The notes under the pieces: model-generated
Seen by the model: the letters and a program-made list of their open reading frames with translations, nothing else
Database searches by the model: none
Told to the model about the DNA's origin: nothing
From: Ptychodera flava
Lineage: Eukaryota > Hemichordata > Enteropneusta > Ptychoderidae
NCBI RefSeq assembly: GCF_041260155.1
Contig: NC_091946.1
Span: forward strand, 34,873,620 to 34,937,619
DNA: 64,000 nt
Reading direction: 5' to 3'
Made by a program: the position numbers and the translations under genes
In this document: positions 7,375-60,975 of the stretch, piece by piece
How positions within the stretch are numbered: the stretch's first letter is position 1
How the letters are laid out: every line of letters begins with the position of its first letter

Positions 7375-7433
7375 AGTATATAGTAGTTTTTGAAAAGGCT
7401 GTCAAAATGTTGTCAAACGGCTCAAAATATCGT

Positions 7434-9697: not shown

Positions 9698-9884
9698 GGG
9701 ACTGGTCAGTTTCTTCGGCCGGGGGGGGGGGGCGGTGGATTATTTTTTGCCGACGTCAAAAAGTGGCTGACCCCCCTATTCCAAATTTTGAAAACAGGGT
9801 GACCCCCCCTATTCCAAATTTCTAAAACAGGGTGACCCCCCCCCCCCGGGCGCGAAAAAGGTAAAACAAAAGATGGACATAAAT

Positions 9885-9954
<70 letters not shown>

Positions 9955-11103
9955 ATATTTTACATATATTTATATTTAAATAGTCATTCTATGTTTTAGT
10001 GAAATTGTTGACATGTCAGTTGTAAGATAGGAATTTCAAAGTGTCAATCTTAAAGTTTAAATACAGTACATTTTGAATGAGCTGTATTTTGAATGAGCTG
10101 TGAATGTATTTCACACTTTCTCTGCTTAACCAGATGTCCTGAACTGTTGTACAGAAATGGATGTCAATCATTAATATCAAAGAGGAAAAAGCACTGAATC
10201 AAAAACTTTGATGGGTGTTGAGACTTGCCAACCATCCAATTAAATCTACTGAGGAGCCATAGAGAGCTTTTTTAGCCAAATCTGATGTGTACAGTGTCTG
10301 AGAGGACCTTTCTTTCTTGTGTAACATTGAAACCATAAAAGCATAGCTAATAATGACAAAAACTGCCTTTTTTAACTGTTATTTTGTTCATAAAAAAGCA
10401 TCTTTCTACAGAAAACCTATGAAACAAAGGAAAATAATTGCATCAATGAGAAGGAAAGATATCTTGTCATTTTTCTATCTCTAAAATAAGTCACTGTATC
10501 AAATATATATGTGAAATATTTGTGCATGTTGCTTTCTCATACTGAATTCTCACAGAGAGAACAGAAAAGTATCAGGAATTTGTCATCCTTTTCATATGAA
10601 ATGCAGATTTCATAATGGTACACTTTCACTTAGCAAACATCAAGATATCTCTGAAAGTATGGCGCCCGAAGGGCGCCCCAAAAAATATGAAACATCCTGA
10701 GATCTCTGATATATATGCCTTGTGCCTGAAGGGCATGCTGAAAGATGTATGATATATTAAAGTAATGAGCTTGAAGAGCACGCTGAAAAATATTGAACAT
10801 ACAGATATCTCTGATGTATGTATGCTTGATATGTTAAAGTTGGGCGTGCTGAAAAATATGACTGATTATTAAAGTTACGCGCCCGAAGGGCGCGCCGAAA
10901 AATACAACTGAATGATGAATTTTGTGGCTGACACTAGCATTTTAGGCAATGATGAGCCTGTGTCAAAATTCAAAAACACACTGACCCCCCCCCTATTGGG
11001 CATTTCAAAAACATGGTGACCCCCTATCACCAAAGTCAAAAACAGGGTGACCCCCCCATGAATCCACCGGCCCCCCCCCAGGCTGAAGAAACTGACCAGT
11101 CCC
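9698..11103. mobile_element. Non-autonomous inverted-repeat DNA transposon, copy 2 (TTA target duplication)
   Basis: This is a close relative of 283-1674 along its whole length, with the same inverted ends and TTA on both sides (9695-9697, 11104-11106). Its (TA)n tract is longer (about 9896-9950) and a piece of the central hairpin-bearing repeats is missing. It sits about 170 bp upstream of the SLC27 terminal exon, in what should be that gene's last intron. Confidence 0.75.
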
Positions 11104-11179
11104 TTAAGATTCGCCAGCTTTAAGAATATACACTAGTTAATAATACCTATGTTGTACAAAGATCATATCTCTCAGATGA

Positions 11180-11233
11180 TCAAATCAAATCAAATCAAAT
11201 CAAATCAAATCAAATCAAATCAAATCAAATCAA
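11180..11233 (+). repeat. (CAAAT)n microsatellite
   Basis: About ten copies of CAAAT end roughly 42 bp before the splice acceptor of the SLC27 terminal exon. Confidence 0.9.
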
Positions 11234-11275
11234 GTGTTGTGATGGAGAAATGTCAAATTTACATTTCCATTCCAG

Positions 11276-11583
11276 GTCAAGATGGTCGTGCTGGTATGGC
11301 TGCTCTAGTCCTAAAAAAAGGAGAAACGTTTGAGCCTACAGAGTTCTACAAACATGTAACAACTTCACTACCAATGTATGCTTGCCCACGGTTTTTACGT
11401 TTGATGGATAAACTTGACAAAACGGGAACCTACAAGTACAAGAAAGGAGATCTCGTTAAACAAGGATTTAATCCGAAGGAAATAAAAAATAAGATGTATT
11501 ATATTGACATCGCCGGTGGAACATACAAACCTTTGCACGAATCAGCATATTTGCACATTGTAACTGGAAAAGCAAAACTATAA
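11276..11583 (+). CDS. Terminal exon of an SLC27 family fatty acid transport protein / very long-chain acyl-CoA synthetase
   Basis: This is the C-terminal piece (about 102 residues) of an SLC27/FATP protein. These membrane-associated AMP-forming enzymes activate long and very long-chain fatty acids to CoA esters and aid their uptake. The exon starts after a TTCCAG acceptor in phase 1 (G|GT) and ends at TAA. It shows the family's GRAGMAAL, then LPMYACPRFLRL, then TGTYKYKKGDLVKQGFNP, corresponding to the C-terminal lid subdomain (family form TGTFK...L..EGFDP), and ends with the usual A/GKAKL-type tail. Earlier exons are not found in the window and must lie to the left, beyond the mobile-element nest. 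The paralogue (SLC27A2/A3/A6-like) cannot be set from one exon. The upstream ATG at 11149 lies in the intron and is not a start. Confidence 0.85.
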
Positions 11584-22000: not shown

Positions 22001-25000
22001 GTACTCATCAGTATGTAACAAGTATGAAGTCTAATGTCACTGCGATAACATTTGAACTCATATCATCAACAGCATGGATTAACAGAGGGGCAGTTAATGT
22101 ACATGAAAGTGAACAATTTGTGTATCTCTTTGGTGTGACATGTATTCTCATGTATGGTTATTAAGACATGAATAGGTACCTGGTTGCTCCATGAACAGGC
22201 AGGATGGCCAACCTAGCAAAATCCTCTATTGGAGAACCCTTTGCAATTTTTTATGTACTGGTTATATTCCACAAGTAATCCTAAGTTTGGAAGAGTTACA
22301 CAGATGTACATTTCCCTCAAGGGAATTTGAATGGTTGGTGTCCCCTCTGTTTTTTTAAACAATCTATCAAAGAGAATATATTTTCACAAAAGGGGGATAT
22401 GCAAATTATGTATTTCTATTTAAATTTGTCTGCCCTCTGTTTTTCCAAGCTGTGCAGAACATGACAGTACTGGTAGGTATCCTCTTCCTAAGTGTTGTTG
22501 AAGTACTTTCTTGAAGTAATTCCGTCAAGATACTTTTTATTAAGTTGTAAATCCCATGGTACTGTTGCCTACTACACTATGCCATCGATATGTGATTTAC
22601 CACATCATATTTACCAGGGTATTGCTGGTGAAAATTAATCTGATTTGTCAAGACAAAAAACTTACAGTGCTATAATATTTGTGATACATAATAGTTGGAA
22701 GAAGCAGCTTCTGAAAATTAATTATTTTTCTACAACGTAAATACTTGATCAATAAATTTGGAGTGGGGGTTATTGAGAAGGGAATTACAGCTTTATTTCC
22801 TAAAATATTTAAATAAAGGAATGAAAGTTAAGGTGGTTGGAAAGGCTAGAGCGTCAGTTATAAATTTCAACAAAAACTATTAAAATATAAAAGTAGTCAA
22901 CATTCTCTGTGGAATAAAAAAACTAGACAGTTGGGCACAAAGGCATTGCAGAGTTATAGCCTGTTAAAACTTCTGAAAAACTGACCAAATAAGAAGAAGT
23001 TGGGGAGTCCTTAGTGTATTAACTATGGTAGAAGTCCCCTAGCTTTTATTAAAATGTTTGAAAAGGGAAAGTCATTATTTGCTGTTTTTCAGGAAAGTTT
23101 GACAAGGCGGTGCTGGCATTCAGAGTGAGTGACTGCTATTGTAAATGAATTTTTAGATTCTTTGAGTGTCAAAGAGGTGTCAAAAGTGAGATTAACAAAA
23201 AAAACTGCTCTATGACTTCAAAAGAAGGGTGCAAATATGGCTTGTTTTCAACATTTTTGACAGAATAACAGTTTTCCTACATAATTGTATACCAATTTAA
23301 TCCAACTTTGAAATGAGATATGGACATGGAATTTTTACAGCCTATTAACAAGGTTACAGATATTATTATTAGATTTGTACGGCACAATTTTCCTGTATTT
23401 GAAGTACTTTTTGAAAAATCACATTTGAAATTTGAAAGAATTTTTAATAATTTTTGATATACAAACCCATGTAAAATCATAAAAACAAATTTTATTTACA
23501 AATCCTGCCGTACAAATCTTACAATAAATAGTGTCAACATATTTATAACTAATTTGGTAATATTAATACTATCCAATTATTATTAAATTCAAATATGTAA
23601 AAAAAATATGAAAAATTAAATTTTAATATTTACTGGTGTCATATTTCAAAATCATGGCTGCAAATATACAATTTTATATTCTTTAGAGAAAATATTAACT
23701 GAGGGAGTTATACTGAAAATTTGAACTCAATATCTTGATTCTAACACTTGAAATTTGACATTAACTCTGAGAAAAGAATTGGTGCAAAAATAGCCTTTCC
23801 AACCACCTTAAAGGTATACTGTTACCTGTTCCAATTTTGCCACAGTTACCATGTAAAGAGAAAGTCTAACCAATCACAGATTTTAAAGGGTAGCCGCTTT
23901 TTAAAAACAGCGCCCTCACGTGGGCATTTTGAATACCAAGGAATGCCCCTTTGACCATATATGGGCAAATTTAGATTACAGGTGACTGTATACCTTTAAA
24001 CGCTTCGTTTTAAACAATTGTGCATGTAAACTTTTGATTATTTGTATGTCATCTTCCATGATGGAACATCATGTCTATAGAACTTTACCAAAATCCATGC
24101 GCAGAAATAAATGACAGCAATGCAGAATGTCAGTCTACTGTAAATATTCATATTCTAGGGCCTATGTAATCTAAAGAACTGACCTGGAATCTTCTGATTT
24201 GTAACATGTGTTCCAAACATGACATTTTGACTGATGTTTCAAAAGCTTCTCAAGTTCAAATGTCACAGAGCATTTTGATCTTCTGTGTACCATGTACTTG
24301 TGGACAGCTAAGGTAATCCATGTTGATCAAAACTAAATGAACATGGCTCAGTTTATAATGCAGTACAACGTTTTAAACTCTGTCCATAATTCATGCATAG
24401 AACAGTCTCTAAAATAATAAATAATATTTTATACTATTAATTGTGTTGATGAATGGCAATGCTTTCCAATGCACATGAGTTTTGAATATTGGCTTGACCA
24501 TGAAAAGAAAATTCTGATGTATGTAAATAATACAAGTCTAGTCTATGTGATACTATTGTTTCCCGGTCTTTTTTCTCCCTACAGTGTCCATACTTGTGCC
24601 ATCTTTTGTACCTGATGACAAGGAAGGAAGATGTCAAACATTTCCGGATACGAAAACTGATCCAGTTCCAGGCAAGAGCAGTAAGTGATGATCAAAAACC
24701 TCCTTCTACAAATACCCCTCTAGGGTAGATATTTGAACTCTCATATTTTCATAATACTTTTCTGACCTGCTGGTCTCCAGAACCTCTTTTGAAGTGTGAA
24801 GTAAATGAAGTTTTACTGTCTTGTCATGTAAAAATGAAAACATGAACCTTTTCCCATACAGTTTATAACAGTATATACTTTAATTTTAGAAAAATTGTTC
24901 CTTTAATCCCAAGTTTTGCAGCCTGACCTGTGATTTTTTATCCTCAATTATGAAAGAAGAGGGTTTAAGGTTTCCTTTAGGAAAGTTTGATCAAAGTCTT

Positions 25001-27187
25001 TGTAATTCAAGGTGAATATTACCTTAATAATAAGTCCTCGTTCTGTATGTGGTAATTTTCACATCTTCACCATTGTTGAATATAATTTGTAAATTTTCCT
25101 ATGTTTTACAGGGTCCTCAAACACACATTCTTGGACTTCTGTCTGTCTACAAACTCTACTGCCCAAACCTTGTCACCGTTTCCACATCGGTGGGCAACAA
25201 GCCGTTCTTCAGGCAGACTGATCGCAAGTGGTCGGAAACCATACGCAGGGTAGTTGAGAAGGGTCTTCAAGACAGCGACAGAATAGAAGAGGTTGGAGTT
25301 GTGAGGGAAGCAGAGTTACAAGCTACAAGTGGCCAAAAGGTCAGAAATAAATTTTCAGCATTAAACTGAATTGCTGTAACTGTTGTATATTGTGTTAGCA
25401 CAACCTCCGTCATTTATCATTGAAATTACAAGGTTTGACAATTTAGCACAAAATGGTCCAATTGACTTTGTACCAGTACCAGTAGATATTGATCGCTTGT
25501 GTGTTTCTCTGTCTGTCTGTCTGTCCACAGTGAAAGTGTGACTGCCCTGCCTGATAGCTTCCTAAAATGATATGCTTAACTGTCATATTGGTGAATGAAT
25601 ACTAAATCATCAGTTTATCATATTAATATTGTATTATTGAACTGGGCATGCATTTCTTGATGTACTCAAGGAGGGGATATTAAAATGTTCACAGTGTAAT
25701 TTGCATTCTGTGTACAAATATACTACCAGGTAACAAGCAGGAATATTTCAGTGGGTACAATATTGTACCCACTGATGTTAAAACTATGAAATCTGAAAAG
25801 TTGCAGCCTCTGGGGCTTTAATGAGTCAATTGTAAATGGATCAGGCAGAGTATGGCAAAAATTCTTTCACAACGAATACTAACTTAAAAGATATTTATGC
25901 AAAATTATCTATTTAAATGCAGGCAAAGCGAAGAAAAATGGAAGTAGTACCCAAGGTGCATATGTCTGCATTGAGCAGGGGACGGCCTGGTAATCTTAAA
26001 GTGCTGCAATTCACCATTGACAAAGTACCTGTGGAGCAGATACAAACATTTCAACAGCTGCTGAAAAATTTTGACAGGCTAGAGGTATTGTAATGCTATC
26101 AGACAGTGTCTTTATCAAGACCGGTAATCCAGGAATTTTATTGGAGTTGAAAATTTCAAAATCCTGGAAAAATGAGTAATAATTCTGGAAATTATAAGGT
26201 GTTAAATTTTATATTATTTCAAACACAAACGTTAATATTCAGATAGTGGTACGTAGTACGCATCAAGTAAATTGGAACTTATGTATGGTAGTAGGGATTC
26301 AACAGTAAGTTTACTCAATATTGGTTTCACGGTTGACTTTATGAAACCTGGCATTTGTAAAGAATAATCACAAGGTAAATAGAGAAACTGATGTTCTGGA
26401 TGTCAGCTGATTCAGTGAATTTGGTAGGGAATGTAGAGTAGTTAAGGTGTACATGGTGAGACCAGGGAAAGAGGTCATTTTTGGTCTGTGTGGATACCAC
26501 ATACACAGAAGCTGATACTATGCTAATGTTTGTGTCTGTCTGTCCGTTGTATGATTGAACAAAACTTGTAAAGTTTTACCTGAAATTTAGTTCATAAGTA
26601 CCAGTGGTTTTCTGAATACAAAATTAGCATCTTATTTCAGTGGACATGGCCTTGTATGACTCATCCCTACCCTACATGTATTATGATTGTTTCTTTCAGT
26701 TACCAAGTCAGATAGCCTCTCTTTTGAGGTCTCCACATCTACAGCAGGTCTTGTCTTGCATGTCAGAACAGACGGTACTTCAGAGATTAAGTAACTGGCT
26801 TCATATGACTCTTTATACAGGTAAAATTGTGACAAATTTCAGAATCCATTTGATTGTGAGATATGTAAATACCTGACCTAATCACTGATCTAGTCCAATA
26901 ATTTTGATTCTCAGTGCATAGAAGTTGCTCTACTTATTGTCTGCTATTTGCTGGTTTAGTGTCAAGTCACATGTTTTGAACTCTGTAGTTTTGAGTTTGA
27001 GATAGATAACTAGATACTCCATTCGTCATCGGCAGATTCTCACAGGCAACAATAAAAAATGAAGTCCTTATTATATGTTATGTAGAGGATTGCAAAAATT
27101 AGACCTAACAGTTGATTAGATTTCCATTTACCAAAATACCATTACAGTAAAATTAAATTGCAATAGAATGACAAAATTACGAAATAT

Positions 27188-39570: not shown

Positions 39571-39699
39571 TGGAAACAGCAAGCTTCCATTTGTCTGAGA
39601 CCTATAATAGTCCGTGGGCTAGAGGGGGTCTACGTGCACCCCCCCCCCCCCCCCAGGATAACAAACCTGTATTTTTCAGAACCCTTGGGATCCCTAGAA

Positions 39700-42420
39700 T
39701 ACGAAATGGAATTTTAACAGGAAAAATATAGGGACGCAATAGCTGTTATGGTCATGTTTTGAAGGGTACCGCAAAATCACGATTTTCCAAGCCAAATGCA
39801 TTTTCGTCAAATCTGTCTTCTTGTAAGTCATGTGCTGAGCTCATTTTTAACATAACCTCACTTGTTTGGTATCATTAGAAAGGGAAGTTATTCCTCTTTA
39901 AGATGACATATTGCACTATGCAATATCTTCTACAGTTTTTGTCAAATATAACCAAAACTTACCCCTTACCCCAAAATTTAACATTGCAAATTACAGTAAA
40001 ACTCAAATTCTACCAATTTTTTAGCTAGGCATAATAAAATATGCATTGCTTTGTCTGAAATCTGTTTTATTTGATACAGGGACATGTCAGAAATATGAAA
40101 TAGACTTAACAGAAAAAATATTGGGAATCTACAGCTGTAACAGTCATATTTTGAAGGGTACCGCAAAATAACAGTGTTGCAGATTTGCATGCATTTTTGT
40201 AAAAACTGTCTTCCTATAAGTTATCTGCTGAGCTTGTTTTTGAATATAACCTGGCTTGTTGGGTATCATTAGAAAGATAATTCACTAGTCTTTGAAATGA
40301 CATATTGTAACATGCAATATCTTGTGTAGTTTTCATGATATATAACCAAAATTTACCCCATTACCCAAAGTTTACATTGAAAATTTCAGTCGTAGCTAAA
40401 ACCAAATTCTACCATTTTTAGCTTGACATAAAAAGTCTGGCTGTTTTTGCTATTAAATCTATTTTATTTGGTACAGAGACATGTCAGAAATATGAAATAG
40501 ACTTTTAACAGAAAAAATATTGGGAATCTACAGCTGTAACAGTCATATTTTGAAGGGTACCGCAAAATAACAGTGTTGCAGATTTGCATGCATTTTTGTA
40601 AAAACTGTCTTCCTATAAGTTATTTGCTGAGCTTGTTTTTGAATATAACCTGGCTTGTTAGGTATCATTAGAAAGATAATTCACTAATCTTTAGAATGAC
40701 ATATTGTAACATGCAATATCTTGTGTAGTTTTCATGATATATAACCAAAACTTACCCCATACCCCAAAGTTTACATTGAAAATTGCAGTCATAGCTAAAA
40801 CCAAATTCTACCATTTTTTTAGCTTGACACAAAAAATCTGGCCGTTTTTGCTATTAAATCTATTTTATTTGGTACAGGGACATGTCAGAAATATGAAATA
40901 GACTTTTAACAGAAAAAATATTAGGACTCTACAGCTGTAGCGGTCATATTTTGAAGGGTACCGCAAAATCACAGTGTTGCAGATTTGCATGTATTTTTGT
41001 TAAATCTGTCTTCTTATAAGTTATCTGCTGAGCTTGTTTTTGAATATAACCTAGTTTGTTAGGTATCATTAGAAAGATAATTTACTAATCTTTAGAATGA
41101 CATATTGTTACATGCAATATCCTCTATATTTTTCATGATATATAACCAAAACTTACCCCAAAGTTTACATTGAAAATTGCAGTCATAGCTAAAACCAAAT
41201 TCTACCATTTTTTTAGCTTGACACAAAAAATCTGGCCGTTTTTGCTATTAAATCTATTTTATTTGGTACAGGGACATGTCAGAAATATGATATAAACTTT
41301 TAACAGAAAAAATATTAGGACTCTACAGCTGTAGCGGTCATATTTGAAGGGTACCGCATGTATTTGCATGTATTTTTGTTAAATCTGTCTTATTATAAGT
41401 TATCTGCTGAGCTTGTTTTTGAATATAACCTAGTTTGTTAGGTATCATTAGAAAGATAATTTACTAATCTTAGAATGACATATTGTAACATGCAATATCT
41501 TCTATAGTTTTCATGAAATATGACCAAAACTTACCCCATACCCCAAAATTTTCATTGAAAATTGCAGTCAAACTAAAATCAAATTCTACCATTTTCTTTA
41601 CCTAGACATATAAAATCAGGCATTTATTTGTATGAAATCTATTTCATTCGGTAATGGGTCATGTCAAAAATATAAAATAGACTTTTAACAGAAAAAAGAT
41701 TGGAATTCTGTAGTTGTAACAGTCAGATTTTGAAGGGTACAGGAAAATCTCAGTATTCCTGACTTGCGTGCATTTTTGTTGAATCTATCGTCTTTTAAGT
41801 CATCTGCTGAGCTTCTTATAGAATATAATGTAAGTTGTTAGGTATCATTAGTAAGATTATTCACTAGTCTTCAAAATGACATATTGTAACATGCAATATC
41901 TTGTACAGATTTTTATGAAATATGACCAAAACTTACCCCATACCCCAAAATTTACATCGAAAACTACTGTCATAGCTAATGTCAAATTCAAGCTGCAATT
42001 TTACGCAGACATAAAAAATTAGACAATTTTTTTGTATGAAATCTGTTTTATTTTGTACTTGGCCATATCAGAAATATGAAATGAACTTTTAACAGAAAAA
42101 ATATTGGGATTCTATAGCTGTAACAGCTGTATTTTTAAGGGTACAGCAAAATCTCAGTATTCCTGATTCGCATGCGTTTTTGTTAAATCTGTCATCTTAT
42201 AAGTCGTCTACTGAGCTTGTTATTGATTATAACTGGGTTTGTTTAGTATCATTGAAAAGTTAATTGAATAGTCTTTACAATGACATATTGTAACAGGCAA
42301 TATCTTGTATATTTTTCATGGAATATGACCAAAACGTACCCCATACCCCAAGGTTTATATTGAAAGTACTGTCATAGATAACGTGATCAAATTCCGTGAA
42401 TTTTTAGCTAGACATGATAA
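39700..42420. repeat. Tandem array, seven units of about 395 bp
   Basis: The marker GAAGGGTACCGCAAAAT or close variants recurs at 39761, 40153, 40552, 40953, 41345, 41732 and about 42137, giving spacings of 387-404 bp. Each unit contains GACATGTCAGAAATATGA, TAGGTATCATTAGAAAGATA and AACATGCAATATCTT. The central units are the most alike and the outer ones more diverged. No coding frame persists. Confidence 0.85.
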
Positions 42421-42609
42421 AAATAGTAGTATGCGCCTCGAAAGTGAAAGACAAACTTTTGCTCAAACTTTCCCTTAGGAATCTTTCAGCCAGTCTCTTT
42501 CAAATCAAGAATAACCAGATATGAACTGAATGTGCTGACGTATTTTTCAACAGGTTCATTAATAGAAGTACGCTTCAAAGAACAATCACATATCCGTTAT
42601 ATCACTATA

Positions 42610-43900
42610 TGTTAGCAGGTTTTATCAACTTAGCACAGTACTCTCAGAGTTTAATCACTAATTACAAAACTTTATTTAATATCAAATGAGCTGTTAATTA
42701 ACTTGACACTGCTCAATGCTTCATGGATCAATCTGATATCCATCAGATCAACATTTGCAGCACGTTTAATGAAATTGAAAGGTGTAATTTTAGAGTAATA
42801 TCACTAATTACAAAGTTCATTGAATTTGCAAATAAACCCTAAATTAACTTGACACTGTTCAATGATTCATAGCACAATTAAATATTTATCAAATCAATAT
42901 CTGTAGCACATTTCACAAAATTTTGGTGCCGAAGTTTCAGCGTTGTATATCTAATTACAAAGTTAATTAAATTTGCAAATGAACCCTTAATTAACTTTAC
43001 ACTACTAAATGCTTTACAACACAGTTAGATATCTGTCGTATCAGTATGTGCAGCAGTTTTCATCACATTTGATGCAGTTATTTCGGAGTTATATGACTAA
43101 TTATAAGACTTCATGAAATATGTAAATGAGCTAATTATTAACTTGACACTGCTCAATGCTTCTCAGTACAATTGGATATTTATCAGATCAACATCTGTAG
43201 CAAGTTTCATGAAATTTAATTCTGTAATTTTGGAGTAATATCACTAATTACAAAGTTCATTAAATATGCAAATGAACCCTTAATTAACTTCACACAACTA
43301 AATGCTCTACACCACAATTAGATATCTGTCGGATCAGTCTCTGCAGCAGATTTCATCACATTTGGTGCAGTTATTTTGGAGTTATATCACTAATTACAAA
43401 ACTTCATAAAATATGCAAATTACCTATTTGTTAACTTGACACTGCCAAATGCTTCTCAGTACAATTAGATATTTATCAAATCAATATATGTACCTAATTT
43501 CACTGACTTGGGTGCCGTAATTTCAAAGTTATATACATAATTACAAAGTTCATGAAATATGCAAATGAACCCTTAATTAATTTCACACTACTAAATGCTT
43601 TACACTACAGTTAGATATCAGTCGGATCAGTATCTGCAGCAGATTTCATCACATTTGGTGAAGTTATAACGGAGTTATATGACTAATTACAGACCTTCAT
43701 AAAATATGCAAATGAGCTTTTTATCAACTTGACACTTCCTAATGCTTCTAAGTATAATTAGATATATATCAGATCAATATTTGTTGCAAGTATCATCAAG
43801 TTTAATGCAGGAAATTCAGAGTTATCTCACTAATAACAAAAGTTCATTAAATATGCAAATGAGAAGATAATTGACATGACACTCACAGTATCATCATAAT
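42610..43900. repeat. Tandem array, about nine units of about 148 bp
   Basis: CACTAATTACAAAGTTCAT and variants recur at about 42654, 42803, 42951, 43099, 43247, 43390, 43532, 43680 and 43828, giving spacings of 142-149 bp. Neighbouring units alternate between two flavours (TTGACACTGCTCAATGCTTC versus CACTACTAAATGCTTTACA), suggesting a dimer of about 296 bp. Confidence 0.85.
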
Positions 43901-44510: not shown

Positions 44511-45564
44511 TCCATTTCAAATATAGTCGCTAGATGAGCCATCTGTTAAATTCAGAAAATGAATGCCATTTACTTGGCATGCATACTGAACCTGTTTCTA
44601 AATTTCAATTTGTTTTTTTGCCAAACCTCATAAAAAACTCTGTTGTGATTGTCAATTATTTATAGTGGCATAGCATGCATCATTATGGTGCCTATGTACA
44701 CGTACAAAGAGCAAGTTATTGGTTGCCAAGTTTTGGAACTGTTACCTGACCAGGTAAAAGTTGAGAAAGCTTTTGCCTAAGTAATTTGGAAAACAGCATC
44801 TATACATGTACACATTCCAGAAAATGTATGGAGTGGTCTGTAACAGAGAAAAGAAATAGCAAAGGAACTTCGCAATTTTTCAGTGAGAAAATGCATTAAC
44901 CGTGTTCAAAATACACATAATAACTGATCATTTTTGAAAGCAGCATTTCCACTGCCTACTTGCCAAAATTATACCAGTACTAATTTACAACTACTAACTC
45001 AGTGAAAATAAACGTCTCTGCAGTAACTTCATAAATCGGTTATTTTCATTTGATGGTTGTACTTTTTTTTTATTTCAATAGTGTAACCCTGGTAACCAAC
45101 ATATTTTAAAAATGACCCACTTCCATGACTAACAAGTTTGTAAAATAGGACCCGCCCCACTACTTCTGCACTGGTCCACCCTAATAATACACGTACCGAT
45201 TTACATTAACTGAAAGCTCCCTTAGGCCTGCAGCTAATACGAAGACCACCAGGTGGGCGGATAACGCGACGGTATTTTGTACATACCATTTCATCGAAAA
45301 TTTAAAAAATGGAACAGAGCTTCACAAAGCTTACATTAATAGGTAAAATGTTAATCCGACACCGACGATTCTTTCAAATATCGGACGCATGCAACCCGTT
45401 TCGGTCCTTTTGACCCGAGAGTGACCTCTGTCGCGATATTTTCACTGAGCTGAAGAGTCTTTGATAAGAAGCATAAGATCCAGGCCAAAGTACGCCACTC
45501 GTCAGTCGAGCTACGCAAACTGGACCAATACGTTGCGACTGATTTACTCCGCAAATTTTGTAAA
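44511..45564 (+). promoter_or_regulatory. 5' flank of the DsbA-like selenoprotein gene
   Basis: No gene is seen. The last 200 bp before the ATG are CG-richer. The frame upstream of the start stays open from 45454, but contains no earlier ATG. Confidence 0.35.
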
Positions 45565-48500
45565 ATGGCGTCAAAACCGATGATCAACATTGACGTAGTT
45601 AGCGATGTTGTATGACCCTGGTGTTGGATCGGTAAGAGGAAACTCGAGGCCGCCATGCAGAAAGCTCAAGGTAAAGACCTGGTGTAGTGTACTGATGTTC
45701 ACTTTACAGTAACTTTCAATGCAATTGTGTTACATGTAGTGCCAACTTCTGGTAGCCAAGGTGGTGTGGCGAATGCTATTCGTGTTACTTGTAGTATGGC
45801 GTAAATGTCTATCTTCAAGTATTTATAGGTCTTGTACGCGGACGTTGTTAGGCGCCATGATCTATGTTTTTTTAATTACTCAAGCTAAGATGTCACAACA
45901 GTTTTAATTTTAAATGATACACACTATAGTATCCAATGTTTGTTGTAAACCAGGTGGTATCACTAGTATATGATGATGATAATGGATGACGTCATTTTTA
46001 TATATCCAGCATATGTACCTGACAGAACGATTGGACAGAACCCATCATATCATATTAGGGTTTACTCTTGCAATTTAGCTTTCAACACAGGACGTGACAT
46101 CATCGTTCTGTGCATGGGTAAAAATAATGGAATCAGTATAAATTTGCCCAGAAAGGTTTGCTGAGTCATGGTGAAACCACAATTCTCAAACCGAACGCGG
46201 CTGACTTACATCCTTCAATAATCCAGAATTAATAAGTGACATTAAAGAACAGATGCAAAGGTCATATCTTGCCTACAATTGGAAGGGTTGCTACGGTTGT
46301 CACTTGGAGACACATATCTTGCACAGTCATCGTTATTTTTGTCCATGCAGGTGTTATGTTCTAGGACTCCCAGTCTCCTTACCATCCAACCTCACATTTG
46401 AGCCTGAATCTGTTTTCAGCAACATTTCAAAATTACTTGCAACCATTTCCCTGGTGTGAAATCTGTTTTATTCAACATGTGACATAGTTTGACATCTGAG
46501 GCTCTGATTGACATTATTTCTCTGTTTAGATAAGTATGAGTTTCGCGTGAAGTGGGAGCCATTTTTCCTCCGACCCGACACCCCGGAACAAGGACTGAAG
46601 AAACCGCCGGATGCTCCATACAACCCGAGGTAAGGAAACTTACAAAAGGCTGATAATTCTTGCATTGCTAAAGACAAAATTATTTTTGTAGGTATTTTGT
46701 GTTATTAGTTACTTCCCCGTCATGGCAAGCTCAGGATTAAGCTCTGAGTACTTTACCATAGTATTCTCGACCGCGGAGTGACGTCAGTAGGTGAAACGCA
46801 TACGAGCGAGGTGAATGAGAGATCAGACGATACAGAAGAGCGAATGATACAGAAATTGTGTAGAAAAAAGCAGAACTAAAAGTTATGTCATATAAGTATA
46901 TTGAAACTTTGAATATTGTTTTGGTGGTTGAAAAATCCGAACCCCTTCACGGTGCTGTGACGCAAAAATGACGTAAAAAACCGCAAGTACCTGGAGACCC
47001 GCGGTCGAGAATATTACAAGCAGGTCTTAAAGAGCAGAGTTGTCATGTTGTACAGAAGCAAGTAGCGTTGATTGCACTTTCAGGTTTGTTACTACATATA
47101 GCTGGACGCGTGCAACATCGGACAACGCTGCTTGAAATTTGGACAAATTTTGTTGTTGCATGCATGGCTGTTGTTGCAGCTTGTAGTCTGAGCAATAAAT
47201 TCATAGGAATTAGAGTGACTTTTAGTAGCCATTGTAACACTATCAGGTTTTATTTCCGTCACTTATGTGGAAAATGTGGACAAATATTTATTATTTATAT
47301 TCATGAAGAAAAAAAATGACGTCATTTGCGACCAGCACTATTTCAAAAAAGATAATGGTGCTCTTGACTGTACTAAAGTGAAGGAAGAATCATGAACTAA
47401 ATCAGATCAACAAAAAATGACTTTTGACCCCATCACCGAGCACCAAGCTCCCTGTGATGCCCAGTCCTTCCATGGTATTTTTTTCATCCTTTAAGATATG
47501 CATTGTTTTTTGATCAGTTCTAAACCAGTCAATATCACCAAAGTTTTGAGCCTTTTCACCATAGAGTCTCTGAGGATATCAATACTATCATATGAGGGGA
47601 AGTAGAAATGTTACTGTCCGTTGCACACAAACTTTTTCAGTTGAGGACATCTCTAACAAGTTCAAATATAGATAATTGATGTAAGCTATGTACATGTTTT
47701 CAAACTATGGTAAAATATTTTTGTCTTTGTTATCACAGAGTCAGCCCAAGACTAAAAGCTGCTGGGGAGGCTGTCGGTATCAACTTTACCGGTGCCAGTG
47801 ATGTCTTCCCCAATACAACCCTGGCACACGCAGTGTTAGAGTTTGCCAAGGAACAGGATGAGACTGGCAAAAAACAAGATGCTCTAGCAGAGCTGCTGTT
47901 CAAGGTGTGTATGATTTCTTGATGAATGCGTCCCAATGAACTATAGTCTATAGAAGCTATTGGGATGGGTATCCGTCCGGCGTCAGTCTGTATGTATGTA
48001 TGTATGTATGTATGTATGTATGTCCGTTTGTGAGGCGTCCGTCCACTCAAATATCTTGACAACCGCAGTAGTTACTGATTTGATATTTGTTGTAGATGAA
48101 AAATATGATTTTGAGAAATTAATTTTTTTAATTTTTGATATTGTTGAAAATAGGCAAATTAATGCCAAAAAAGGTGTTTTTGGTAAAAAATCTTCTTCTT
48201 CATAACCGCTGGTCAGACAGCTTTGTTATTTGGTATACAGGTCCCTAGGGGTAACCCAACTTAGATTTGTTCAATTGTGATGAAATATGCAAATGTGTAT
48301 TTTTAAGGAATTTTTTTTTCAATTTTGGTCAAAATTTGACTTACATGGTATGTAATTCTTGTACTGTATAAACCCCAGGGTTTCGCTAAGTTTTGAAACA
48401 GGGGGCCAAGCCGTACCAACGTCAAAGAATGAGGATTTTGGATATGGCAGCTGATATTTATATGCCCACAGAGTTGAAGCAAGTCAACGTTTGGCTCCCA

Positions 48501-51500
48501 GTCATTAAAATCCAAGAACGAACGCGAACGTTGACTACATTGACAAGCAAGCCATTGTTTAATACAATCCGCGGCCACGGATAGCTGTGGGCGATTGCTG
48601 ATGCATTCAAAGAAACCTTTCCCGAGACACATTCATAAAACGCCGCATAAGTATCAATATGATCTGAGACATTGCCATCGATTGTACCCTTCTTAATCAA
48701 CCAACCCGTCTATCTGTTTCCATTTCGACCGAACTGAGTGACTTCAACCACGTATGGCCGACATTATGTTGCGTTACTGCACACGCTCAATGACCCCTAA
48801 CCTCCAACCACCCTGTGTACGTTGTACAGACGGGTTCAGTGCTGTACAGTATCGCACGATACACAAATGCAAACCAACGAACACAAAATTTTCACTGAAA
48901 ACCCTGCAAAAGCGTTGAAAACAAGTAATTCAGCATGAAGGATACAGATCATTGTAAACTTTTACCGATATGCTGTATTTGTTACCAGCTATTCATTCCT
49001 GTAAGCGGCACAACAATTACATGATTTTCAGGTAATTACAGGCGGCCGTGATCGCCTTACAGCCGGCCATATGGCCGGTGGCCGGCTTTTAACGAAACCC
49101 CTGAAACCCTATCAATTCACCCAGAAAAAAATAATTAATATGATTTTAAATAATTGAATTAATTAGGAAATCATCAAAGCCAAAATAATTTTATTGTCAG
49201 AAATGTCAGAAAGTTCAACTTTTTCTGACAGTTCATAGTGAAATGCTTACCATCTGGGAGGATTAAAACATGTAAAGGCAACTTTCCTGAATCCCAACTT
49301 TGACATATTCTAAACCGTCATTTATTGTGCCCTGTATGTTATCTAGAAGAAATTGCTCAAAATAGTCAATAGAGATAGAGATAGAGAAAGTTCTAATTTC
49401 CATTTATGGTTGACTTGGTAAGGATAAAATAAAATTATGTTTTGAGGAAAAAAATAGAGTGGTTCAATTAAAAGAGTGGTCAAAGTGATAGGGTTTTATG
49501 GTAAAGCTGGGTTGTAAGATTCCTCATGTGCTATTTATAGCAATTATGCAATCTGTGTAAACAGTACAATGAAAGTTACAGATTCCTTATAATGCTTTTG
49601 ATGACCTTGAACTTCTTAAGTTTCAAACATTTGTATCTTCAGTGTGCTTTCTCTGAGTATGTACAGTCTCAACTTATTCAACAGAACTCACTTACAATGT
49701 TAATCAAAGATATCCACCTTCATCAATACATGTGTCACAAAAGGTTATTCTCTACATAACACAGCAGAGCTCCTGTCAACTGTTGAGTTGCTTGTTTCTT
49801 TCAAAACTGCTGGTCAGACATTGGTTTACAAGTCCCTAGGATGACCTAAGTGAGATAATTTCATACAGTCAGGAAATACTTAATTTTGTATCCATGTCTA
49901 TAGTAGCTTCAGGGACATTGGCCCTATGTTTATTTGAATGTCAACCATAATTCCTTGATCTACTCCCCAAGGCATGTTGATATACACAGTACCCAGCTTG
50001 TCAACTCAGCCCATACATGTGTAAACTGCATTGTTATTGTTGAAAAGTGACTTCTGGTCCAGACTAGAATTCAAATGTAAACAATAACAACGCATTTTAC
50101 ACATAGACGCTAAGTTGACAAGCTAAATAGTGGGGGTTTCAACATTCTTTGGGGAGTAGAATAAGAAGTTGCAGTTGACATACAAACTAAAAATAATGAA
50201 AAAATCAATAAAAAGTTGGCATTACTGGCGTTTTAAGAATATACGGTATATTTAATGGTAGGTAGCCTGGCTATGGAAAGACGCAACCTGTCAGGATTCT
50301 GCAGGAAATCAACTGTGGATCTTAACCTCATAATAATTGATTGGAAAGTCACCAGCAGTACTTTGTGAAATATTAATTAATTGGAGCACACTTTAATTTA
50401 CAACCATTTTTGTCGTCATTTCATCAGGGCAAAAGCTCTTCCTTTTGCATTAATGTAGAATTTCTGCTTGAATGTAAAAACCAAGTACCAGACACTATTG
50501 CCAAAAGATAACTGTTAGTTCCTTGGGACTGAAGTAAAACCAACAGCTGCAGTACACTCTAGACTTCAATAGTAGAGACACATTTCCAGACCATGTTGAC
50601 AAGTCACAAAATTAAGTATTTGTATCGTACGGAATAAGTCAGGAAACCATGTCATTGAGCTTAACTTCTGAAAGAATGCCAAATTTACCAGTACTTTTGC
50701 TGTATTTGGCAAGAAGTGCATTCCTTTTAAAGGGAAATGGTTGTCTGAACTGTGCCTGTGCGAGTTTCTTGTTTACAAACAATGTATTTCGTGCACAATT
50801 TCTAGATGCACCTCATCATCATAACTGCAACAATTAAATTATACGATGTAGATTATGACAGACATGTTTTAACTTTCATCAATCACCATCGTACCTTGGA
50901 TACAGTGTTTACATTGATCGTATGGGTCCCGTGCAACCTTTGAGTGCAGTTCCAATGACTGTATCCCCTTTAATGTATTTGTACGAACATAGCATAAGCA
51001 AGTTGGTTGCATATAATCTGTTTTCCTTTGACACCAAAAGGCTTACTTTACGGATGGTACACCATTTACCGAGGACTTCCTGTTGAGTTCGGCAGAGTCT
51101 GCTGGTTTGCAAAAAGATGCCGTGCAGCAATATGTGTCTAAGCAGAAAAACAGAAGAAAGGCCGCAGACAAGGCCACTGCATGGAGTTTTCATGGTGTCA
51201 GTGGTAAGCATGTAAACTTATCATCTTGTACAGAGTGTTTAATTGGTCTGAGCCACCCAATATTGCAATAAATGGAGTGTTTTTTTGTTAGGAAAAAGTG
51301 GACCCCTTTCAGGGGGAGCTGGATGAATGGATGTAAATGATGTGTATCAACACATCCTAGCATGAACAAACCAAGCAGTCCACTAAAGCCATTAACCCTT
51401 GCACCCTGACCCCCTGGTGACCTATGACATCATACGGACATTTTTTTCTGAGCCGGGTTCAAAGGGTTAATGTGCCACATTTAACCTTTTTGTCACCACA

Positions 51501-51510
51501 TTGTGTGGGG

Positions 51511-51561
<51 letters not shown>

Positions 51562-52145
51562 CCCCCCCCCCCCCCCCCCAAAGACGGTGTTTCTCCACTT
51601 TCTTTGCCTTAACCTGCCAGGTCTGTACAGTCCTTGAAAGTCGTTGAATTTTAAAGCCTCCAGGAAAGTCCTGGAAAAGTGCTTGAAAATGAAATTGGGT
51701 GTTTGAAAGTCCGGGAAAATTGATAATTCAACCTCAATTTTCAAAATCGACAAGATGATTAATTGTGATATCATACAAATTATATGTAAAATGATGAATA
51801 AAAATGATGTCTTAAAAATGATATCTGGCAAACTATTTTTGACCTCTCAAGTTCTTGAAAATTTGCTGAAAAGTCTTTGAAAATTCCCTGAATTTTACAG
51901 TAAATGACTTGGAGTGTATGGACCCTTGCCCTGTCTTCTTGGACAAAGAAATTTCCCATTCATGTATGCTTTTTAATGTATTCTATAATATTGTAAATGA
52001 CATTCTTAAACCTTCAGGTGTGCCAACATTCTACATGAATGGACAGAAGGTGTTCTCTGGAGCTCAGGATGAGGCCACCTTTGTCAAAATGTTCGAAATA
52101 ATCACAGAGAAGCACCCGGTCACCGCAACAACGTCAAACATGTGA
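45565..52145 (+). CDS. DsbA/FrnE-like thioredoxin-fold selenoprotein (Sec at codon 17), five exons
   Basis: Exons are 45565-45670, 46530-46629, 47739-47904, 51041-51203 and 52018-52145. All are GT-AG and in phase, 663 nt in total, 220 residues, the normal length for the DsbA/FrnE (PF01323) family. The start is the only ATG in the open frame (AAAATGG, good context). Near the N-terminus, strand residues INIDVVSDVV lead into TGA-Pro-Trp-Cys, where the family has Cys-Pro-x-Cys, then WIGKRKLEAAM. The helical insert follows, then the cis-proline loop GVPTFYMNG and SGAQDEATFVKMFE. So every hallmark is present except that the first active-site Cys codon is TGA, and C20 is the only cysteine. Two SECIS-like hairpins in the 3' region support decoding as selenocysteine. 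Likely role: soluble thiol-disulfide oxidoreductase; the substrate is unknown. No signal peptide is seen. The alternative is a Cys-to-stop mutation, which the SECIS pair argues against. Confidence 0.88.
45613..45615 (+). other. In-frame TGA, proposed selenocysteine codon (Sec17)
   Basis: The flanking codons are GTT GTA TGA CCC TGG TGT, giving V-V-U-P-W-C. The TGA replaces the attacking cysteine of the CPWC motif. The frame is intact on both sides and no splice arrangement avoids it while keeping DVVSDVV and PWCWIGK together. Confidence 0.88.
46759..47016. mobile_element. Short inverted-repeat element in intron 2 of the selenoprotein gene
   Basis: ATTCTCGACCGCGG near the left end (46763 on) and its complement CCGCGGTCGAGAAT on the right give ends of about 17 bp; TA flanks both sides. 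There is no ORF. Confidence 0.6.
47941..49928 (+). repeat. Dispersed 1.3-kb repeat, copy 1, with a 0.73-kb insertion
   Basis: It starts CTATAGTCTATAGAAGCTAT, contains a (TGTA)n tract (about 47988-48023) and GTGAGGCGTCCGTCCACTCA, and ends near TATAGTAGCTTCAGGGACAT. A reverse-oriented copy lies at 57910-59182. Copy 1 is interrupted at 48376-49103. It lies in intron 3 of the selenoprotein gene. Confidence 0.75.
48376..49103. mobile_element. CAGGG-ended insertion, 728 bp, inside the 1.3-kb repeat
   Basis: The ends CAGGGTTTCGCTAA and the complement of TTAACGAAACCCCTG are inverted repeats, and AAACCC flanks both sides (48370-48375, 49104-49109). The related copy at 57910-59182 has the uninterrupted site TATAAACCCTATCAATTC (in complement). 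hAT-like ends are inferred. Confidence 0.7.
49960..50159. mobile_element. Small hairpin MITE, about 200 bp
   Basis: CTACTCCCCAA..ATGTTGA and AGCTTGTCAACT.AGC form inverted arms of about 50 bp around a short loop. Confidence 0.6.
51512..51580 (+). repeat. (CT)n followed by poly-C
   Basis: About 47 bases of CT repeat, then an 18-C run, in intron 4 of the selenoprotein gene. Confidence 0.95.
51615..51925. repeat. Dispersed repeat (AAGTCCTTGAATTTTAAAG family), copy 2
   Basis: It has the same layout as 39337-39570, again ending at GTGTATGGACCCTTG. Confidence 0.55.
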
Positions 52146-52375: not shown

Positions 52376-53267
52376 GGCAAGTCTACAAGAACATCTAATG
52401 CCTTTCAAAGGCAGGATTGTACATAACTATATGCATGCATCAAATCTTTCAACATTATTTTAATATCCAACTGAAAATGAAATTTTGTAATCAATGATTA
52501 CAAAATTTTTCTGAAATTTACACTGTCATGTCCATTGATGCAAGGGCCGCCATAGTCTATGAAGACCTCTTATACAAATATGCAAAACAATTATTGTTGA
52601 AATTTTTGTACAAATTATCACTATTTTTGTTCGTATTACATTAAAGGCCCAGAAATTGCCACCTTTGGCTATTTCATTATTTTCAGACTATCTGTTTCCT
52701 GTGTAAACCAAAGTTTGTTGGTATACTCTCTGAAGAATTTTGAAATACCTAGTATTTGGCTCATCACTGTATTGTTTGTATGATGTTTTTGTTGACAGTT
52801 GAATTCAATGCGGAACAGAAATCAGGTCGTCAGTAACAACAAGTGATGTATGCTAGTTTGTATCAATAAGGTGTAAGAAAACAGTGTTATTTTCTCACGC
52901 CCTATTGATACAAACTACAAACTGTGTGCCCATTTCAACTTACGTTTGACATTTTCCAGTATATGTTAATCGTAAAATTTGTTTTGCGCTGTAACCCAGA
53001 ATGTATGTGTTTATTGTTTGCTTGAGTGAATATGGTATAGCGACAGTACTGAAATTTTACAGACAGGGCGCCCTCTGTGGTGAAAAGAGAGTGCAGAAAA
53101 TTTGTGAGATTTTTTATTAAAAAGGCTCAGAGGGACATGATAATGATTGATTTGGTTCATTAAAATGAACTTGATTGTAACTCATTTGTAACAATTTTAA
53201 TTCTTTTGTATATTTACTCTTGCATACTTCCAGTTTTGTAATGTTGAACAGAACAATCAGCGGTTCT

Positions 53268-53383
53268 GTCTTGCCATGTCAGTGTTCTTATTGGAGATGC
53301 AGTTTATGATAGCTCTGAGTTAAAACTTAGGATTCAGTGCTTGAGAATTGTCTGCACTAAAAGTAGTCATTACCTGGCAAGAC
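53268..53383 (+). promoter_or_regulatory. SECIS element 1
   Basis: The outer stem GTCTTGCCA (53268-53276) pairs with TGGCAAGAC (53375-53383). TGCAG (53298-53302) pairs with CTGCA (53352-53356). The quartet is ATGA at 53306-53309 and TGA at 53342-53344. Helix II is AGCTCTGAG (53311-53319) with TTCAGTGCT (53333-53341). The apical loop begins AAAA at 53322, 12 nt after the UGA. This matches the eukaryotic SECIS plan that recruits SBP2 and the Sec elongation factor. Confidence 0.85.
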
Positions 53384-54108
53384 TCAAGTGATAACAAACA
53401 AACAGCCAAAGTCTCAAAATTCATCCATTCTTTGTGTTATAAATAGGAATTTTTTAGCTATTTTGTTATCCTCAAAGGTGAAAATTTCAATATCCTCATA
53501 GGGGAAAATTATTACTTGTATAGGTATGTCAAGATAATTGATATTGGAGAGAGTTTGTCTTGTCCTATAAAAAATTGCATAATTGTTATATTCTGTCTCA
53601 TCTTATTGATAGGGGTAGATAGTGCACAAGTTTAGGTCAATGAATATTGCCCATTGAGTTGCATACTTGGTACAATCGCCAAATACACTTTTTACAAATG
53701 AACAGATTGACTTCCAACTATGCCGCTGAAAACAATGGGCTTTACCATTTCTGATTCAGGGGCAAGTGTGAAGTGTGAACCTTTTCCTTTAAATGAGTAG
53801 AAGAATCGGATATCTGATTTCAATATTTGATTTTTGCATATATTTGCTAATGGTAGAGTTTCCAACTGATGCAGTAACCCAATGTATACCAAGATTGTTT
53901 GCTTGGGTGAATATGGTATAGTAACAGTACTAAACTTTTACAGGCAGTGCGCCCTCTGTGGTGCAAGAGGGTGTAGTAAATTCGTGAGATTTTTTAAAAG
54001 TCTTGTATATGTAATGATTGATTTTGTTCACAAAAGTGAATTCGATATCAAATCTTTGAATTCAAAACTTAATCTTTATTACTTTATTATAGTTTCACAA
54101 TCAGGTCT

Positions 54109-54225
54109 GTCTTGCCATGTCAGTGTTTCTTATGAGAGATGCAGTTTATGATAGCTCCGAGTCAAAGCTTGGGATTCAGTGCTTGAAAATTGTCTGCATT
54201 TAAAGTAGACATTACCTGGCAAGAC
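54109..54225 (+). promoter_or_regulatory. SECIS element 2
   Basis: It has the same architecture: outer stem 54109-54117 with 54217-54225, TGCAG 54140-54144 with CTGCA 54194-54198, ATGA at 54148-54151, TGA at 54184-54186, and an AAA apical loop. Compared with copy 1, one U.G pair became C-G and one U-A pair became a C.A mismatch. Confidence 0.8.
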
Positions 54226-54574
54226 TCCCAGTTAGTACGTTAGGAGCCAAATTCTCAAAATTCATCGATTTTTGAGTTGTAAATATGAATTTATTAGCTT
54301 TTTTAGTATCCTCAAGGGTTAATAACTGGTATAAGTATATATATCAATATTATTGCTTTAGGAGAGATTTGTCTTGTATAAAACCACTGCACAACTATAG
54401 GTTCTGTGTCATATTATTTGAAAGAAATGATAGTGCCTGATTTTGGGCCAATGAAGATTATGCATTAATAATTACACATGATTTGCAATCTGTTAAATTT
54501 TCATACCAGACAATCTCAGTAAAACCTTTTTTCTTGTTTATATCACAACACCATTGTCAAATCATTTATTCTGG

Positions 54575-54599: not shown

Positions 54600-56965
54600 T
54601 TCTCAATGGCATGATATTTATGATAACTATATTAATGTTTTTTATGAAAGTTATCTATTGACATTGCAAACTGCAGAATGATGACAATATGCATGTCTTA
54701 TTGTATGTAATATATGTATGTGTGTCTTTGTTTATGTGTAAATACGGATGTACTGATGTCTGTATGTGTGTAATGTAGATTATGGTAACTGATAAACTAT
54801 TGGGTAGTGTGTCGTGTTTGGACACTTTGCAAATTGCCGAGGTGTACTTGATGCACAATCATTAAATTAGACACTTGGTACTTACTAGTGGACTAGTATA
54901 TGTATCTAGATGAAGACATGGAACTTCTGCATGTTACCAGGTGTTGTTGGCTGTCACATGACATCAAGGGGCAGAGGGACTACAAACTGCCACATGCACA
55001 GACGTATGCTAATTTAGGACAACCATAAAAATGACCGTGATTTTACTAAAACCACTGGAGGGCATTGAACACTAGATGCATGGTCAAAGTCAAGTTTACA
55101 TTAATAACATGGGGAGTCAGACTTCAATGTAATTCCGGAAAACACCCTACATGTAATATCTGCAAATGTTTGATTTATTCAGTCAGGGTAATTTTGTCAT
55201 CTAAATTCAGCAGAGCAGCTGTCACAATGGTGTGGTGACCTCTGTCAGAACATTACTGAAACCTTTTGAGTCAACATTTTCTTGTGAGTCAAATTATTTA
55301 GAATACAGTCTGTGTTCTCAAACAAACTGTAATAAGAAATACTGAGAATCAAGTGTTTTCCACATTTGAATTTCTGATGCTCTCTGTTACTTGAATAATT
55401 TCAATATGAAGACTTCAGAAGGCTTTGCCTGAGCGGTGAGCCAGAGCAGTGTAAAGGCGCACCTAAATGGACCACGATACAAACAAAACCGCTTGCACAT
55501 ATGCATGTAAAAATACCTATCTCAATATGTGTACATGTACACTCGAGCTTGTACTGCCATCATGCTATCTTTTGTACGTACTGGGTCTTTTTGTCTGGGA
55601 GTAGAACCATTAGGTAATTTGAACTTGTACATTTACCACTAAGCTTTACCTCTACATGTTGCTTTCAATAGCTCTCAGTAGATACAGGCTTACAGTGGTT
55701 TGTGTTGAACTGTTGGCTACACAGGAACTAGACATACTCTCTTAATTGGGGAGTTGCTAACACTATCAGGTGCATTGAGTGTCTAGGTGACATATATAAT
55801 TCAACCCAGCGAAAGGTGAAACATTGTACAGAAGGTGGTCAGATATAGTCAAACCAGCACCGTCGGATCTGCACAAGGCTTGCAAATGATGCGTTCTGAA
55901 CAGCTAACTGGATGTGTGTTGTTGTTTCGACTTTATCATATACCTACATTCACGTGCCTGTGTAAAGCTATGGGAGAAAGCGCCCTCAGATCCGTGCATT
56001 TTTTTTACGTATCACGCCCCGGCCCGGTGCCCAAATATGGGCAATCGCGTGCATTTCTGAACTATTTCGATTCTGGTTACTACGCGCGTTGCTATCTGCA
56101 AACGTTCCATTCGTACACAAAGCCAGCGCGAGATTAGGAAAACGTCTGCTCGCTCAGATCGTAGTTGCGCGTGGCGACAGTGGAGCCGTGCAGGTGACAT
56201 CGGCTTTTATTTCTAAATTCTAGTGAAATCCTGTGCATACTAAGTGCGTGCCTGTTCAGTATAAATTACCAGAAACTGACAACACGCTTTTGTCCTTCTA
56301 ACACCTCGATTTCAGCCTTGATCTCTGTTGGTCACGTACAGTACGGATGTTGCTTTGCGCGTTCTAGAATTCTGCAGGTAAACAAATGACGTCATTATGT
56401 ATGTCAATCCGCGACGGGAAGCGGTCATCGTATTTCTGAAAAACTGACACAAATGGCGATGAATTTTTGATATCGCACGCATTTTTATCTCCGAAACAAT
56501 GTTGAATATTATGTAAACTACATATTTACCATTTCATAAGGTATATGATAAAACCTTTACGGCCCTGATACGGCTTTTGCGGCCCTTGGTCGTACGGCGT
56601 ACGGGCCCTCGCACGCTCGGGCCCTTCCGCCGTACGACCTCGGGCCGCAAAAGCCGTATCAGGGCCGTAAAGATTAACGCATAACTTCCTCCCTGACAAT
56701 GTTTCAACTTTTGCAGAGTTGATTTCTGTTATTGACTGATATTACGCCAAGGTGATAATTACGCCTCACTGTGTTGTCATCTCCTCAATTTCGACGTCAA
56801 GTCTACCTCCTGCATTGCCAATGGTTCAATGCAAACCACAGCAAAAGGACAGCTCAAACAGGTCCACTTTGACCATGTTTGTCACATTATGCCTATATCT
56901 GTGTATGGCTAGACACAAATGTAAAATTTTTGAAAATGTTGGTTTTGAGCTGCTACCATTTCTGT
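54600..56965. other. Intergenic spacer
   Basis: No gene is recognised. A stretch around 55.8-56.4 kb is CG-richer but gives no convincing exon. It contains the hairpin listed next. Confidence 0.5.
56555..56672. mobile_element. Near-perfect 118-bp hairpin MITE
   Basis: CTTTACGGCCCTGATACGGC ... TTTTGCGGCCC, then GTCGTACGGC, is mirrored by its complement up to GGGCCGTAAAG. Arms are about 50 bp around a short loop (TCGCACGCTC). It is far richer in GC than its surroundings. Confidence 0.7.
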
Positions 56966-59214: not shown

Positions 59215-60975
59215 GAATGACAAAAATAACGAAAAGTCACAATTGAACAAATTGAGCACTGCATCAAACAACTCAGATTCATTAAGAACCTATCAACACA
59301 CAAACTCACAACATTGAAATCAACGTACTTAGCAAAGGCTTAAAATTCATTCCCACAACAAATCGTCCTAACAGAATCCACCTGTTAGGGGACATAAAAT
59401 ATACATTCCGAAAATGAGACTCCGATATATCATGAGACACAGACCGTACAACACCCTGTCAAAATGAACTTGAAATGGATCCCACATACAACCGAGAACA
59501 CAAAACTAGAAATTATTTGGAAGCAACAAAATTGGCTATTGTTAACACACCTATTCGAAACATAAAAAAAACAACATGACACGTGCAGAACAAATAGTGT
59601 TCAAAACGCTATCAAAAACAAGAAGATAACCATCAAACCGTTTGATAAAGGACGGGGGACAGCAAGTTTAAACACTGATGATTACGTAAGGGAATGTCAA
59701 CTTAATGATCAACAATACTACACAAAATTGGCAACAGATGACACAAAAAATACAATAGAAGACATACCGGTACACAATCTCATAACAGAAATGAACAATG
59801 GAAAAAACATTGACCATCACACATATGAATATTTGAATCCAGTCGATAGAAAAATACCGAAAATACACAAAGTGCCGCCACCAGGAGCTATGTTTGTAGT
59901 ATGGCCAATCATAAGTGGATGCTCCAGTCCAACATTTCACATATCAGAATTCATTGACCATTTTCTCAAATAAATCGTCAAGAAACAACCAACATACATC
60001 AAAGACAACATACTTTATATGGAAAATTGAGACAATCAAAGTTCCGGCCAAAGCAACTCTAGTAACACTGGATGTAATTTCCATGTACATGAATTCACCA
60101 CATGATGAGGTAATTGAATCAATCGGCAGAGCATTAAATCAGGAAAGATCATCAAACAATTACATAATCAAGCAACCACCAAAGAAACACATGATAGCTC
60201 TGCTAGAAGTAATCTTTAAAAAACAACACATTCGAATTCAACGATGAATTCTACTGGTAAATATGGGGATGCTCGATGGGGTCCCCGTCTTCTCAAGAAA
60301 TAGCAGATATTACATTTCATGAGACAGAAACGAGAATAATACAGAAACACAAACAACAAATATCGACCTGGCTGAGGTTCAGGGACGATGTTTTTCTGAT
60401 TTTCATCGGAACACAACACGAACTCAATGAATTCATATCAAACATCAACAAAATGCATCCTACTTTCAATTTTTCGTTTGAAAGCTCCTCTCAAGAAATC
60501 ACATATTTAGACCTATCTACAAAGGTCGTCGATACAACAAAGAGAATATTCTCGACATCAACACACACACAAGGCCAACAGATACATTTCAATTCTTACA
60601 AAGAAACTTATGCCATCCGGCAGCAAAGGTGAATCATTAGGATAGATCAGAACATGTAAGAACGAAATCGATTTTACACAAAAGTCACACAATTTAGTGA
60701 AAAATTACAAGACCGACAATACAAATAAATTAAATAGAAAGCATTATCAGAGAGATAGATCATAAAAGCAGAAAAAGACTGCTTGAACAACAAAAAGGAA
60801 GCAATAACGCCACCAACAATACCAACATATAGCCTGTTCATAGAAACGACAAAAATCAAGCAAGCCCTGACAGAAAACTGGAGTGAACTTGAAAAAGACG
60901 AAACACTAAAAAAACTGTTCCAAAATCCAACTTATAATCGCATATATTTATTAGAAGGAACAGAAATATAGGTGG
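59215..60975 (+). pseudogene. Penelope-like reverse transcriptase, decayed
   Basis: Penelope-type segments appear in order: KIPKIHKVPPPGA and SGCSSPTFHISEFIDHFLK (59860-59970), ATLVTLDVISMYMNSPHDE (motif A, about 60050), MGSPSSQEIAD (motif B, about 60276), RFRDDVFLIF (motif C, about 60371), TYLDLSTKV, and a thumb-like NPTYNRIYLL. The frame changes several times. No GIY-YIG endonuclease was recognised. The nearest type within PLEs (Penelope, Neptune, Poseidon) was not resolved. Confidence 0.8.

Follow-up and report, generated by a model that had tools for sequence, protein, structure and literature searches.

The locus examined here, in a 64-kb stretch of Ptychodera flava DNA referred to below as the window, raises the question of whether a TGA that stands at the catalytic site of an otherwise open gene is a stop or a codon for selenocysteine (Sec). 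The sequence-only reading of the window had placed this TGA at the first cysteine position of a CPWC redox motif, in a gene whose five exons joined in phase to a 220-residue protein with a GVPTF loop, and splicing bore out both points. The TGA is codon 17, all four introns are GT..AG, and the spliced coding sequence of 663 nt yields 220 residues and a stop, with an SGVPTF cis-proline loop whose GVPTF spans the junction of exons 4 and 5 (Table 1). Codon 17 is the sole internal stop of the spliced frame, and frames 2 and 3 contain 10 and 9 stops, respectively. A search for splice sites up to ~12 nt from each internal exon border gave 27 in-phase combinations that have the two TGAs as their sole stops, are 214–223 codons long and all include codon 17; the model used here was chosen by eye for its 220 residues and SGVPTF, the remaining combinations being left unscored. 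The open frame at 45454-45615 is without a further methionine ahead of MASKP.

Table 1. Positions in the window of the coding exons, the in-frame TGA and the features of the 3′ flank.
Feature	Position	Strand	Remarks
Coding exon 1	45565..45670	+	start ATG, putative Sec codon, UPWC active site
In-frame TGA, codon 17	45613..45615	+	inferred selenocysteine, first Cys of CPWC
Coding exon 2	46530..46629	+	
Coding exon 3	47739..47904	+	
Coding exon 4	51041..51203	+	
Coding exon 5	52018..52145	+	cis-proline loop; terminal TGA stop at 52143-52145
Duplication unit 1, 3′ flank	52988..53648	+	72% identical to 53871-54459
Larger hairpin around SECIS candidate 1	53268..53387	+	outer stem GUCUUGCCA/UGGCAAGAC; includes the stretch best conserved between the two units
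SECIS candidate 1	53298..53356	+	core AUGA at 53306-53309, apical AAAA, UGA at 53342-53344; Rfam, fold, descriptor
Duplication unit 2	53871..54459	+	72% identical to unit 1
SECIS-like copy 2	54140..54198	+	core letters kept, two mismatches in helix II; SECIS_1 14.9 bits
AATAAA	54575..54580	+	first canonical poly(A) signal past both SECIS copies

The spliced protein matches Pfam DSBA (PF01323) over residues 9-202 with an E-value of 8.5e-33 and, more weakly, Thioredoxin_4 (E 6.2e-6); a search with NCBIfam profiles gave no match near the cut-offs. In the PDB, where three sequences matched at E up to 0.001, the closest was FrnE (5cnw/5cp1; E 2.6e-19, residues 4-216), which we take to be from D. 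radiodurans, followed by SCO1869 (E 2.3e-8), presumably from Streptomyces. The TGA codon falls on the first active-site Cys of both proteins in the PDB alignment, and the resulting UPWC at residues 17–20 matches the CP(W/F)C of the FrnE subfamily. Bacterial relatives were also collected, 361 encoding stretches being found in genome contigs, and in all 80 of those that were kept (29–40% identity in the best segment) the residue aligned with codon 17 is the Cys of CPWC, a count that is biased towards Cys and disfavours Sec forms, since the search patterns included CPWCWIGK. The C-terminal CX4C found in many, although not all, FrnE proteins (PMC8945050) is absent here, Cys20 being the sole cysteine of the protein. 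That the gene encodes a FrnE-type DsbA with a putative Sec in place of the attacking Cys, as had been proposed, is the best reading, and it is supported by the DSBA and FrnE matches and by a SECIS candidate downstream.

Ordinary gene finders would start the protein after the TGA, at Met31 (ATG 45655-45657), which would leave a real gene with a truncated product and place the TGA in the 5′ UTR or at the end of a short upstream frame. The sequence-only reading had anticipated that annotation would lose exon 1, and precisely this has been reported for the DsbA genes of Ciona intestinalis and Branchiostoma (amphioxus), in which the Sec part of exon 1 was annotated as 5′ UTR (PMC2874816). The conservation of the family, however, extends upstream through the TGA, and a DsbA-fold protein deprived of its CXXC loses the active site, which makes a genuine start at Met31 extremely unlikely.

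A recently inactivated FrnE pseudogene, or an error in the assembly, would present a TGA at this codon as well, as TGA is one base away from the cysteine codons TGC and TGT and the sequence derives from genomic DNA only. Against this stand the absence of a second lesion in the 220 codons or the four introns and the position of the TGA itself: with Cys assumed at codon 17, the TGA found there is one of 83 one-step nonsense changes, so that a random pseudogene stop at this codon, with the frame otherwise intact, would be rare. The SECIS-like structure downstream, which lies in a block conserved between two duplicated copies, and the Sec-DsbA genes reported in other animals (both described below) also argue against inactivation or misassembly, and the chance of either is considered slight.

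If codon 17 is a Sec codon, a SECIS is expected 3′ of the coding region. The sequence-only reading had expected one without locating it, and a candidate with the core AUGA/AA/UGA (SECIS candidate 1) was found starting 1.15 kb past the stop codon. It scores 22.9 bits against Rfam SECIS_1, for which the gathering score is 35, and the search of 4.9 kb with 4227 families gave it an E-value of 0.49 (~1.2e-4 as a single-family test). In the same search, two miRNA models outscored SECIS_1 elsewhere in the 4.9 kb, and the Rfam scans of the whole window, at the gathering threshold and at E up to 10, did not list the candidate. Its centroid structure is a SECIS fold, i.e., helix I, an open core, a helix II with 10 pairs and a single mismatch within it, and a 9-nt apical loop, and its MFE structure is the same fold with two weak pairs inside the core. 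The 66-nt core alone gave a z of -1.32, with 24 of 200 shuffles folding equally well, and the 127-nt hairpin with the GUCUUGCCA/UGGCAAGAC stem gave -38.5 kcal/mol and a z of -2.94. A SECIS descriptor, written after candidate 1 had been seen, matched once in both strands of the 64-kb window, namely at candidate 1, in the correct place and on the correct strand; in 40 shuffled 64-kb strands, which served as the control, it matched 13 times.

Two other hairpins of the 3′ flank were tried as SECIS and rejected, both having no SECIS core and miRNA-model matches below the cut-off. The one at 52854-52917, ahead of the SECIS, is a MITE-like palindrome with 28-nt arms, and the one at 56562-56665 is a 104-nt hairpin of 69% GC (mir-2545-like with 53.8 bits on the minus strand, cut-off 94); both are probably mobile-element palindromes. 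Several poly(A) signals precede SECIS candidate 1 (AATAAA at 52370 and ATTAAA at 52640, 53116 and 53159), and use of a poly(A) site at any of these would remove the SECIS from the mRNA.

A stretch of ~660 nt in the 3′ flank is tandemly repeated, so that it carries two SECIS-like copies. The two versions of the 118-nt block around the SECIS (53268-53385), whose limits were set after the copy alignment had been viewed, are identical at 108 of 118 positions (92%) as opposed to 328 of 462 (71%) in the flanks (Fisher p 1.2e-6; gap columns excluded, 1 in the block and 80 in the flanks), and the block ties for best of the 538 overlapping windows of the alignment. Gene conversion could be an alternative source of this conservation. 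The motif GCGCCCTCTGTGG is present in both duplication copies. For copy 2, an alternative fold of -16.3 kcal/mol is preferred over the SECIS fold of -10.6 kcal/mol, and the 126-nt hairpin around it, although stable (z -3.09), is not SECIS-shaped either. Copy 1 is presumed to be the SECIS in use, and copy 2 is considered doubtful.

It is conceivable, if rather unlikely, that the single Sec codon is served by both duplicated SECIS, each in a larger conserved hairpin and both under selection, and that alternative poly(A) use would yield transcripts that carry neither SECIS, one of them or both, thereby tuning full-length FrnE versus early termination. A duplicated SECIS on a DsbA/FrnE gene was not found in print in the selenoprotein and two-SECIS literature searched, the available text of which describes two SECIS for SelP, SelW1 and Sep15 and not for DsbA (PMC3473315, PMC2874816). 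Ciona SelW1, SelP and human Sep15 resemble the present gene in that a single coding region is followed by several SECIS candidates (PMC2874816); they differ from it in that the copies here lie in an evident tandem duplication, of which the second is weak. In Ciona, SelW1 is reported to be the only selenoprotein with two SECIS (PMC2874816), in contrast to the tandem-duplicated SECIS block found here downstream of a DsbA gene, the orthologues being compared by description.

Whether the family had been described before was a point left open by the sequence-only reading, and the literature shows that it had. A DsbA in which Sec takes the place of the upstream Cys was reported in 2010 from Ciona intestinalis, C. 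savignyi and Branchiostoma floridae (PMC2874816), and a list of 2012 gives two Sec-DsbA genes in Nematostella and one each in Lottia, Capitella and Branchiostoma, as well as Cys forms in a sponge and in Trichoplax (PMC3473315). SelenoDB 2.0 includes FrnE (DsbA) (PMC3965025), and algal forms are also in print (PMC6627142, PMC7539508). As far as these accounts describe them, the animal proteins share with the present one the DsbA family, Sec (putative here) for the upstream Cys of CXXC, the position of the Sec codon in exon 1 and a downstream SECIS, for which the present gene has a candidate (PMC2874816, PMC3473315, PMC3965025). DsbA is counted among the selenoprotein families lost in vertebrates (PMC3473315; absence also in PMC2874816), which agrees with the earlier suggestion that mammals lack it. 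No report of a hemichordate DsbA selenoprotein was found in the literature searched, and for Saccoglossus the search led to work on SECIS-binding proteins. The gene is very likely a further member of the known Sec-DsbA/FrnE family, and the apparently duplicated SECIS is the only part of it not found in print in these searches.

The surroundings of the gene contain four CENP-I (Mis6) frames upstream, at 19623-26873 on the plus strand (two of them below the Pfam cut-off, at 22.2 and 18.1 versus 23 bits), an AMP-binding_C exon at 11137-11580 (E 1.9e-6), which by eye resembles a fatty acid transport protein, and retrotransposon frames at 2474-7401 on the minus strand (RVT_1 at 4.9e-27 for 2836-3495). 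The repeats at ~353-654 and 9771-10101 look alike by eye and may be retrotransposon LTRs. Frames at 59566-60629 look by eye like a Penelope-type reverse transcriptase, and for two of them a Pfam search with E allowed up to 0.01 found nothing; two satellite arrays, with periods of ~401 nt and ~147/293 nt, occupy 39698-43862. The neighbouring CENP-I, AMP-binding and reverse-transcriptase frames, together with the introns, fit an animal chromosome and not a bacterial contamination. Marine bacterial DsbA-like selenoprotein genes have no introns. Nine DsbA-like selenoprotein sequences from Sargasso Sea bacteria are similar in having UXXC in a DsbA-like protein, a likeness drawn by description only, but their SECIS lies directly downstream of the in-frame UGA (PMC1088965). 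A search for bacterial Sec forms with the DNA pattern UPWC[FY]xG, a narrow pattern that is silent on differently spelled forms, gave one match in 398 genomes (reversed-pattern control 0) and one in 392 (control 2), and both were rejected as chance matches, having many stops around them and no convincing FrnE alignment. A longer version of the pattern had zero matches in viral contigs.

Given the intact spliced frame, the DSBA domain, the TGA at the catalytic Cys codon and the SECIS-like hairpin downstream, the locus is very likely a working animal gene for a selenoprotein, a DsbA-fold thiol oxidoreductase of the FrnE subfamily. The SECIS candidate, as part of the 3′ UTR, would recruit the animal Sec machinery (SBP2, eEFSec, Sec-tRNA), leading to UGA 17 being read as Sec; Sec17 would then attack oxidised substrates such as disulfides, and the selenenylsulfide would be resolved by Cys20. 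The use of Sec would raise the reaction rate and the resistance to over-oxidation. As the protein has a single cysteine and no CX4C, regeneration of the enzyme would need an external reductant, i.e., glutathione or thioredoxin. This sets it apart from D. radiodurans FrnE, whose CPWC aligns with UPWC here but in which the active site, with Cys in the Sec position, is proposed to be regenerated by the C-terminal CX4C (PMC8945050). FrnE proteins are described as predicted cytoplasmic thiol oxidoreductases, and a D. radiodurans mutant shows stress phenotypes (PMC8945050). The hemichordate protein is probably a cytosolic reductase or isomerase in oxidative-stress defence, the cytosolic location being suggested because inspection by eye reveals no obvious N-terminal leader.

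Since the family is already in print, the gene comes as a small surprise. It is nevertheless a clean example of a gene broken by ordinary annotation, in a selenoprotein family reported as absent from vertebrates (PMC2874816, PMC3473315), and its duplicated SECIS would provide a natural test of the role that a second SECIS plays beside a single Sec codon.
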